DNA of 64,000 nt, from the NCBI GenBank assembly GCA_946059305.1, contig CAMGMU010000002.1, positions 1-64,000 on the forward strand, read 5' to 3'. Positions within the stretch are counted from its first letter, which is position 1. Each line of letters opens with the position of its first letter. A model generated the notes under the pieces. That model saw only the letters and a program-made list of their open reading frames with translations. It was not told the DNA's origin and made no database searches. Origin of the DNA: an uncultured Bacteroidales bacterium (GTDB lineage Bacteria > Bacteroidota > Bacteroidia > Bacteroidales > Paludibacteraceae). The position numbers and the translations under genes were made by a program. Below are positions 44,351 through 63,599 of this stretch, piece by piece.

Positions 44351-44363
44351 ATAGATGTCTTCG

Positions 44364-44462
44364 TGAAAAACTGTTTCCGAAAAACACGTTTCCGAAAAAC
44401 TGTTTCCAAAAAACTGTTTCCGAAAAACACGTTTCCAAAAAACTGTTTCCGAAAAACACGTT
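44364..44462 (+). repeat. 14/15-bp tandem repeat GTTTCC(G/A)AAAAAC(T/AC), ~6.5 copies
   Basis: GTTTCCGAAAAACAC / GTTTCCGAAAAACT / GTTTCCAAAAAACT units between the MFS and lipoprotein genes. Confidence 0.9.
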
Positions 44463-44502
44463 AAAATACCAAATATCATAACTTTATTAACTACATTCCA
44501 AG

Positions 44503-51696: not shown

Positions 51697-51819
51697 TCTT
51701 CCTTTTATTCCCCTTTTTTCACAGCCCTATAGAGCTCGCTCTTTCTCATCTTTGGCTCCCTATAGCGCTCCGCTCTCCCCTTCCTCTTACTCCCGAAAAT
51801 CTTTGATTTTTGGGAAAAG

Positions 51820-51849
51820 TATTGTTCATTGGCAGCAGATATTATCTGC
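51820..51849 (+). other. Hairpin element alpha, copy 1
   Basis: TATTGTTCATTGGCA-GCAGATA-T-TATCTGC; homologous to 63383-63414 and 63484-63513. Confidence 0.65.
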
Positions 51850-51916
51850 GTCTTTCTCCCATCTCCTCTCTCTCGCATAGGAAGGGTAGGTGAGAGACTT
51901 CAATTTTTCTCTATTT

Positions 51917-52477
51917 ATGACTATCCTGCTTCATTGCTGTTGTGCCCCCTGCTCGTCAGCTATCATCGAATGGATGATGCAAAACGACTATCGTCCGGTC
52001 CTCTTCTTCTCCAATCCCAATATCTACCCTCAGGAGGAATATCTCATTCGTAAGAATGAGCTCACTCGCTATGCCACCGAATTAGGGCTGCAAGTAATCG
52101 ACGATGACTATGATCATCAGCTCTGGCTTCAGCAAGTAGCCTCCGGAAGAGAAAACGAACCAGAACGCGGTTCGCGTTGTTTGGAATGCTTCCGTATGCG
52201 TATGCTTCGTTCTGCCCACAAATGCAAGGAATTGGGCATTACTACCTTTACTACTACCCTTGCTTCCTCTCGATGGAAATCACTCGAGCAAATAGCCATT
52301 GCCGGTCATTGGGCGGCCGAACAAGTGGGTGGGGTGGAGTTTTGGGACCGCAACTGGCGAAAAGGCGGACTTCAGCAACGCCGATCAGAACTCCTCCGCG
52401 AACATCAGTTCTACAACCAACGCTACTGTGGTTGCGAATATTCAATGGCCATTCTCGATAAGCATCCCGCCCAATGA
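51917..52477 (+). CDS. queH: Epoxyqueuosine reductase QueH (DUF208 family)
   Basis: MTILLHCCCAPCSSAIIEWM; FFSNPNIYPQEEYLIRKNEL; QQRYCGCEYS-type C-terminus. Confidence 0.93.
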   Translation: MTILLHCCCAPCSSAIIEWMMQNDYRPVLFFSNPNIYPQEEYLIRKNELTRYATELGLQVIDDDYDHQLWLQQVASGRENEPERGSRCLECFRMRMLRSAHKCKELGITTFTTTLASSRWKSLEQIAIAGHWAAEQVGGVEFWDRNWRKGGLQQRRSELLREHQFYNQRYCGCEYSMAILDKHPAQ

Positions 52478-52626
52478 GGCGAGTGGTCTTCAATAATTCA
52501 CTCGATAAGCATCCCGCCCAATGAGGCGAGTGGTCTTCAATAATTCATCTCGATAATCATCCCGCCCAATGAGGCGAGTGGTCTTCAATAATTCATCTAG
52601 ATAAGCATCCCGCCCAATGAGGCGAG
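52454..52626 (+). repeat. 47-48-bp tandem repeat (3 full + 1 partial copies) overlapping the queH 3' end
   Basis: CTCGATAAGCATCCCGCCCAATGAGGCGAGTGGTCTTCAATAATTCA(T); starts 52454, 52501, 52549, 52597. Confidence 0.93.
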
Positions 52627-52783
52627 TTCCCCATGGCGTTATGCCCCCTTTTTTTGACCCATTCTTTCTTCCTTGAAACAATTAGAATATTTGTTAATAA
52701 TTGCCAAAAACACCCTATTTTGTAATCCGTATATGACAAAACAACGAAAAATGCGATGTTTTAGCGATTTTTTTAGCAAAATA

Positions 52784-62207: not shown

Positions 62208-63071
62208 ATGACGCAGGATTGCTCAACTTCCTCTTCTCTCAAGCGCCTACCTAAAGGTATCCGTATCATTTCTCATTCCCCCTCTCGCCCTAAAGAGCCC
62301 GAGAGGGTATCTTCCCCGAATGTTCCGGTATCTGTTCAATCTGAGGGCTCATTGTGCCCTCATTCCCCCTCTCGCCCTAAAGAGCCCGAGAGGGTATCTT
62401 CCCCGAAGATTCCGGTATCTGTTCAATCTGAGGGCTCATTGTGCCCTCATTCCCCTTCTCTGCCTAAGGAGCCAGATCAGCAATCTTGGGGCTATGTCTA
62501 TATCACTCATGGTAGGGTAGAGCGCTTCCTTGAACTCATCGAATATATAGCTGCTCAAGGTGAATTTACCCCTCCCACTTTTGTACATCGTTCCCCTCGG
62601 AGAGATAAGAAATCGTCACCTAAATCCCCCAAAAAAACATCCAAAACCGTTCAAAAAACGGATACCTCTTCAGATAATCCCGAACAGTTGGACCCTCTCA
62701 CTGTCAGTGGATTAGTCTTTCTTCAAGGCGAAACTCGAGAACTAGAACGGTTCCTCATGGATAATTTCCCGATGATCTACCTGGTTAAAGACTGTGCCAC
62801 CAATCGTCCTGCCTCCATCCCCCATGCTCAGATGAAGCCTTTCATGGAACTGATGAAGTCCAATCCCTATGAGATTACGCTCCTGCGCGATGCGTTTGAG
62901 AAGTTCGCAGAGAATCGCGTGAAGTTGCGTCTGCTCACAGGTCCTTTCGCGGGTCATGAGGGTTATATCGTCCGCATTCATCGTGACCGTCAGTTGGTGA
63001 TGCAGCTCGGAGGCATCACCGTGGCGCTTCGAGGCATCCACCGCGAGACCTTCGAAATCGTCTCCCCTTAG
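62208..63071 (+). CDS. UpxY/NusG-like transcription antiterminator with a repeat-derived N-terminal extension
   Basis: WGYVYITHGRVERFLELIEYI N-terminal NusG-like part; KOW region LLTGPFAGHEGYIVRIHRDRQLVMQLGGITVALRG; two 29-aa repeats before it. Confidence 0.82.
   Translation: MTQDCSTSSSLKRLPKGIRIISHSPSRPKEPERVSSPNVPVSVQSEGSLCPHSPSRPKEPERVSSPKIPVSVQSEGSLCPHSPSLPKEPDQQSWGYVYITHGRVERFLELIEYIAAQGEFTPPTFVHRSPRRDKKSSPKSPKKTSKTVQKTDTSSDNPEQLDPLTVSGLVFLQGETRELERFLMDNFPMIYLVKDCATNRPASIPHAQMKPFMELMKSNPYEITLLRDAFEKFAENRVKLRLLTGPFAGHEGYIVRIHRDRQLVMQLGGITVALRGIHRETFEIVSP
62274..62460 (+). repeat. 87-bp tandem repeat (2 full + partial third) with embedded hairpins
   Basis: CATTCCCCCTCTCGCCCTAAAGAGCCCGAGAGGGTATCTTCCCCG...GAGGGCTCATTGTGCCCT; unit starts 62274, 62361, 62448. 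Confidence 0.92.
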
Positions 63072-63193
63072 CTTCTCCCTCCCCTTCTTTCCTCCTCTCC
63101 CTTCTTTCCTCCTCTCCCTTAGTCCGCCTCCCTAGCCCCCTCCCTTAGCTCCCTCTCTTTGCCCGCCTCCCCCTTCTTTCCTCCTGCCTCCTT

Positions 63194-63368
63194 TTCCCGT
63201 TTATATAGGGTGCGTTTCACGCACCCATAGGTCCCTGTCCTGCCGAGGGGGCTCATTGTGCCCCCTTTTCCAAATCCCCCTCTCTCCCTTTGCCCGCCTC
63301 CCCTTCTTTCCTCCTGCCTCCCTTTCCCGTTTATATCGGGTGCGTTTTACGCACCCATAGGTCCCTCT
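63194..63368 (+). repeat. Duplicated hairpin cassette in a pyrimidine-rich intergenic region
   Basis: TTTCCCGTTTATATAGGGTGCGTTTCACGCACCCATAGGTCCCT and TTTCCCGTTTATATCGGGTGCGTTTTACGCACCCATAGGTCCCT. Confidence 0.85.
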
Positions 63369-63382
63369 TCCCCTTTGGGGCG

Positions 63383-63414
63383 TATCGTTCACTTAGCCGC
63401 GGATACTATCCGCG
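63383..63414 (+). other. Hairpin element alpha, copy 2
   Basis: TATCGTTCACTTAGC-CGCGGATA-C-TATCCGCG. Confidence 0.65.
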
Positions 63415-63483
63415 TCCCTCTCCCTCCTCCTCCCTCTCTCCCTCGCCTTTCTCTCTTTCCCCTCCCTCCTCTCTTTCCCTTCG

Positions 63484-63513
63484 TATTGTTCGTTGGTAGG
63501 AGATAGTATCTCC
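63484..63513 (+). other. Hairpin element alpha, copy 3
   Basis: TATTGTTCGTTGGTA-GGAGATA-G-TATCTCC. Confidence 0.65.
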
Positions 63514-63599
63514 GTCTTCTCCCTTCGTCCTCCAAGCTTCCCTCTCAGGGAGATTTAGAGGGTCTTCTCCCTCTTTTTTCGCAGAAAAAGCATTTTTTA

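Follow-up and report, generated by a model that had tools for sequence, protein, structure and literature searches.

In Stenotrophomonas maltophilia, group 3 REPs consist of a perfect 16-nt palindrome with a 3-nt loop and a tag placed directly 5' of it (PMC8266576). CGTC REPs are short palindromes, reported also from Bacteroidetes, that occur without a dedicated transposase; they carry a CGTC tag and an AT-starting stem at one end, with a stem of 8 to 9 bp and a loop of 4 to 5 nt (PMC3733652). The hairpin family analyzed here was found in a 64,000-nt stretch of DNA, referred to below as the window, from the 2.18-Mb MAG GCA_946059305.1 (97 contigs, 95% complete). The explanation we favor, to which we give about an even chance of being right, is that its units are REP-like and probably non-autonomous tagged DNA hairpin repeats with a separate mobilizer. 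The family is apparently undescribed, as full-text searches on Bacteroidales turned up no description that goes further than the REP survey of 2013.

Hairpin units in the window

Three units lie on the plus strand of the window. The first (51819-51853; 59 bits, E 4e-15, and E 1e-7 with the relatives' model) belongs to subfamily a1 and reads GTATTGTTCATTGGCAGCAGATATTATCTGCGTCT (35 bp), in which the lead GTATTGTTCATTGGCA is followed by the stem GCAGATA-T-TATCTGC and then by GTCT; its orthologue in the sister MAG is equal in all 35 letters. The second (63382-63417; 54.2 bits), a 36-bp unit of subfamily a2, GTATCGTTCACTTAGCCGCGGATACTATCCGCGTCC, is composed of the lead GTATCGTTCACTTAGCC, the stem GCGGATA-C-TATCCGC, and GTCC, and the third (63483-63517; 57.7 bits), again a 35-bp a1 unit, GTATTGTTCGTTGGTAGGAGATAGTATCTCCGTCT, of the lead GTATTGTTCGTTGGTA, the stem GGAGATA-G-TATCTCC, and GTCT; both were also matched by the relatives' model. 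When folded as DNA, each copy gave a single hairpin of 6 to 7 bp with a 3-nt loop (z of -3.2 to -4.5). The element pattern had 0 matches in 100 shuffled windows, and its chance expectation is zero. These results confirmed that the three related segments noticed in a first-pass annotation are real, each beginning one base earlier than was given there, and that the compensated stems GCAGATA/TATCTGC, GCGGATA/TATCCGC, and GGAGATA/TATCTCC are exactly as it described them. Of the 3' motif that it regarded as shared, (C)GTC is conserved, mainly in the source genome and its sister, whereas CTCCC is local CT-rich context outside the family.

Across the family, a unit of about 35 bp comprises a lead, [T/C]GTYYRTT, a stem of 6 to 8 bp ending in AT, and a 3-nt loop. 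The tag, GTATYGTTCRYT in the source species, is unpaired and present on one strand only, and the units are polar. The inner AT...AT is nearly invariant around a constant 3-bp center, while nearly every Watson-Crick pair is accepted at the four outer positions. The loop favors pyrimidines on the tag strand, at position 2 in 83 and at position 3 in 91 of 106 units. Subfamily a1 consists of GTATTGTTCRTTGGYA plus stem, a2 of the lead of the second window unit plus stem, and a3 of GTATTGTTTGTTGG followed by CTGCTGATA and the remainder of the unit; a further subfamily is a 48-nt variant whose hairpin is longer. Tandem 41-bp repeats, GTATCGTTCACTTAGCCGCGAAATTGCCCAATCGGCATCGC, at two loci of the source genome (contigs 74 and 92) have an a2-like start and have lost the hairpin center.

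Units are often preceded by a separate hairpin. Directly 5' of the first unit, a terminator-like hairpin, CCCGAAAATC...GATTTTTGGG (51792-51814, plus strand), was read by eye, as was a mini-hairpin, CCCC-TTT-GGGG (63370-63380, plus strand), directly 5' of the second; the third has none. With a minimum arm of 5, a cutoff that the 4-nt arm of the mini-hairpin does not reach, a hairpin ending 8 nt or less upstream was present at 36 of 61 copies in the source genome (3.7 in shuffles) and at 18 of the sister's 44 copies, where 2.2 would be expected.

Several other repeats and RNAs were also observed. A second repeat (63170-63236 and 63300-63366, 96% alike) adjoins the units and has a hairpin, GGGTGCGTTTYACGCACCC, after which ATAGGTCCCT follows. 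Related copies occur at other sites of contig 2 and also in the sister MAG. At and past the end of queH (52454-52643), a 47- to 48-bp repeat, CTCGATAAGCATCCCGCCCAATGAGGCGAGTGGTCTTCAATAATTCA, stands in four tandem copies, and a short array at 44351-44480 alternates AAAAACTGTTTCCG with AAAAACACGTTTCCG. In the stretch separating the queH region from the gene that follows, 52820-52891 matches Rfam FopS, a paralogous Bacteroidetes sRNA family (78.9 bits; gathering score, 56); a second FopS lies at 275-347 of a relative's locus (L259). Four intergenic loci (L016, L033, L187, and L209) hold long arrays in which TGGAAC (or GTTCCA) spacers alternate with different mini-hairpins of 9 to 13 bp, for example TGGAACGCCCGCAGGGCTACTGGAACGGCCTTTGGCC, and these arrays may represent another family of tagged hairpins in the same genome.

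Copy number, distribution, and pairing

A search for further copies, which the first-pass annotation had suggested as a check, returned 33 in the source genome with a loose pattern and 0 with the reversed pattern. The first covariance model, R1, raised this to about 55 to 60 convincing copies, and the sister MAG, SUG1147, carries about as many; two entries of our genome set, G120 and G168 (the latter listed in the same genus), are apparently this one assembly, as they share contig coordinates. Weak matches in relatives proved to be clear family members with other stems, among them GGGGAT/ATCCCC, TGCGGAT/ATCCGCA, CGAGAT/ATCTCG, and GGCGAT/ATCGCC. Models R2 and R3, rebuilt on the relatives' stems, yielded 106 distinct units from 50 loci of the genus.

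R3 matched 150 of the 178 genomes sampled from the genus, one per species, and 57 of the 68 good genomes among them; copy counts per genome are lower bounds, with about 39 candidates scored in each. Of 247 genomes drawn from the order, R3 matched just two, both of them members of the genus, and none of the remaining 245, among which two genera of the same family are represented. R3 was trained inside the genus, and the absence elsewhere applies to the tag-plus-stem family as modeled. The family is thus genus-restricted, with a burst to roughly 55 to 60 copies in two sister species. An apparent restriction to the two sister genomes, seen with the exact pattern and the first model, was an artifact of narrow stems, as the broader models revealed. 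Isolated exact-pattern matches in other phyla were attributed to chance, as they came one per genome, near the chance number and without the family's extended stem, and phage carriage was discarded after one chance match in one search and no match in another.

The covariation noted in the first three copies held in 32 distinct own and sister sequences, 15 mixed sequences, and 106 distinct sequences from relatives. In the own and sister set, 98.2% of cells were paired, with 27 double-side changes, 0 one-side changes, and no G-U, and sliding the 3' arm lowered pairing to 21 to 65%. In the relatives, 99.7% of the 636 cells were paired, compared with 25 to 50% in slid structures; double changes numbered 144, and a single cell was G-U. 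Because a trained model could favor perfect pairs, a less biased recount was made with only the lead or tag and the inner AT-NNN-AT as fixed elements. It returned 113 sites versus 7 in the reversed control, and all four outer pairs were Watson-Crick in 88 of the 113; its ratio of G-U to mismatch, 11:37, was close to the background of 375:1807.

The first-pass annotation had argued for a selected RNA or DNA hairpin rather than chance. The additional copies and the strong compensated variation uphold the hairpin, but selection is not strictly proven, because template-switch mutation could also yield perfect pairing. This large set of compensated stems nearly free of G-U offers a clean natural test of DNA- versus RNA-level hairpin constraint, as well as of template switching as a source of compensated changes.

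Orientation, arrays, and turnover

In the source genome, units stand on the sense strand behind the upstream gene at 33 of 39 scorable sites, with 6 opposite (p about 1e-5), whereas in the relatives the split was 31 of 52 versus 21 (p 0.21, not significant); both counts are rough, as the gene calls were simple ORFs. The positions before queH and a sugar dehydrogenase gene singled out in the first-pass annotation are not special, because the units are interspersed repeats that in the source genome lie mostly behind the preceding gene. A gene at 62208-63071 encodes a UpxY/NusG-like protein, named by eye from its sequence, and adjoins polysaccharide genes; an internal 87-bp direct repeat within it gives a repeated Pro/Ser-rich N-terminal segment. 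Copies crowding contig 2 at 63 to 72 kb, near this gene, suggested a UpxY-specific antitermination signal, which was rejected because most copies sit elsewhere.

A functional RNA hairpin at transcript 3' ends, serving as a terminator accessory, in mRNA end protection, or as a protein-binding site, is an unlikely explanation of the family. The orientation in the source genome fits such a role, as do the terminator-like hairpins that often precede units and the stable folds predicted for them as RNA, but the orientation preference is weak in relatives and the copies occur in arrays and in species-specific numbers. Rfam 15 gave no match at the units, either in the window at the gathering score or in 8 loci at E up to 0.5. 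RNA helices tolerate G-U pairs, which are almost absent here and whose absence therefore argues for a DNA rather than an RNA hairpin. Together with the lack of a fixed gene-relative direction in relatives, this favors a DNA hairpin.

Units in the relatives often stand head-to-tail, at a spacing of exactly 35 bp in 9 of 18 neighbor pairs, and all 32 of their multi-unit loci are one-directional; both directions are present in 4 of 13 multi-unit loci of the source genome. Tandem neighbors had a stem-arm identity of 0.71 (18 pairs, of which some came from duplicated or overlapping loci), compared with 0.69 for units of different loci. Neighboring stems are thus unlike each other, and therefore recent tandem duplication does not seem to be the origin of the arrays. 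It is conceivable, if rather improbable, that one-directional arrays are written by a hairpin-recognizing enzyme that adds unlike hairpins beside those already there, in constant steps of about 35 bp. If so, its products would be ordered repeat arrays of a new class, with a conserved tag and a variable, self-complementary stem.

Binding of a duplex DNA palindrome by a dimeric protein, either nucleoid-associated or a regulator, with the tag making an additional contact, seems very unlikely. Such a site could explain the constant 3-bp center, the nearly invariant inner AT...AT, and the rarity of G-U, but the freedom of the four outer pairs means that no sequence is read at those positions, the tag is one-sided, the loop is strand-asymmetric, and stems vary both between species and between adjacent units. 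A one-sided tag, an asymmetric loop, and free stem letters with fixed pairing therefore point to a folded strand and not to a symmetric duplex site.

Whole units are present or absent between otherwise alignable loci. Behind dnaK (named from C-terminal sequence), unit sets differ between several species, and a comparison of G223 with G182 at this locus showed a clean 35-bp gap of one unit with the rest alignable, which may be a gain or a loss. The queH locus and contigs 1, 4, 5, and 71 carry copies at corresponding positions in the source genome and its sister, and recent movement is therefore limited. At the contig 71 site, GCGAATA/TATTCGC in one genome corresponds to GCGGATA/TATCCGC in the other, with both sides changed, and the center differs by a G-to-T change that is not complementary; at the C1 locus, the two centers are T and A. 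In the relatives, orthologous units of G183 and G176 carry GCCGAAT/ATTCGGC and GCCGGAT/ATCCGGC, and their loops, ACT and AGT, are reverse-complemented, a hint of template switching. The idea that orthologous copies are better conserved than their flanks was dropped, as two loci are identical at 35 of 35 positions and two others differ. No target-site duplication was found at the units. A reading of the units as MITE ends with inverted terminal copies (a3...a1 pairs) was also rejected, because the pairs differ in spacing and orientation and units as a rule stand singly.

A neutral by-product of replication is as improbable as duplex binding; under this reading, template switching would perfect quasi-palindromes and slippage would multiply them, without dedicated mobility or function. 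One-step template switching makes or repairs perfect stems and yields double changes without G-U intermediates (PMC8794818), and the ACT/AGT loops and T/A centers are the complements expected after arm copying. However, the noncomplementary center on contig 71 does not fit, and neither the conserved tag and inner AT-NNN-AT, nor the genus restriction and near-constant 35-bp spacing of unlike units, nor the scatter over dozens of loci in two species is explained.

Under the favored explanation of tagged, REP-like DNA hairpin repeats, what is recognized would be the folded single strand of a unit (tag plus hairpin), much as transposases recognize their REPs, and the units would be non-autonomous elements that enter intergenic DNA by copying or are lost from it. 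Spread may have proceeded as single-strand or replication-slip units, through an enzyme that either acts in trans or has since disappeared, and template switching during replication probably helps the stems stay perfect (PMC8794818). Any service to the host, as a spacer or as a 3'-end structure behind terminators, would be secondary. No mobilizing enzyme could be tied to the units. The source genome, at 95% completeness, contains no Y1 transposase, and the gene may have been lost or left unassembled.

Comparison with known repeat systems

The units most resemble GTAG REPs and their TnpA-REP/RAYT system, with which they share a tag left unpaired 5' of a perfect hairpin that is comparable in size and loop, compensated stem variation, an intergenic position mostly behind genes, and species-specific bursts (PMC3733652, PMC8266576). 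The short perfect stem of 6 to 8 bp with a 3-nt loop agrees with the GTAG REP stem. The tag, however, is different: GTAG occurs in 12 of 32 own and sister sequences and 13 of 106 from relatives, and GYRG, although present in 30 of the 32, is found in 32 of the 106, so that the tag is not that of GTAG REPs. Further differences are the lack of a cognate transposase (Y1_Tnp, PF01797) in the source genome and its sister, the one-directional arrays, and the scarcity of G-U where GTAG REPs often show GT pairs.

CGTC REPs, including Neisseria dRS3 and Rickettsia RPE-4/RPE-6, are alike in being short palindromes without a transposase (PMC3733652). In the units, however, CGTC stands after the stem (20 of 32 own and sister sequences, and just 8 of 106 from relatives), CGTC followed directly by AT occurs in 1 of 138 aligned sequences, and the loop is 3 nt, which separates them from this class.

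With REPINs and BIMEs the units have in common that they are small, non-autonomous, clustered intergenic hairpin repeats (PMC3116915). REPINs are inverted pairs, whereas units are direct at all 32 multi-unit loci in relatives, which sets the family apart from REPINs. TIRYTs, or TIRtrons, couple a Y1 transposase with GGGGWSAS inverted repeats. One TIRYT-like element is present in the sister MAG (locus L124), with ACACAATGGGGACAGTCCCCTTTGTGT-type palindromes at 961-1001 and 2046-2076 flanking that genome's single Y1 gene. This transposase was considered and rejected as the mobilizer, as the palindrome on both its sides, GGGGACAG, is unrelated to the units, and the source genome lacks the gene.

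Overall, the family supplements the GTAG and CGTC kinds, which have been known since 2013, with genus-restricted palindromic repeats of Bacteroidales that carry a new tag, and its many species with natural gains and losses of units allow a direct test of how palindromic repeats without a transposase spread.
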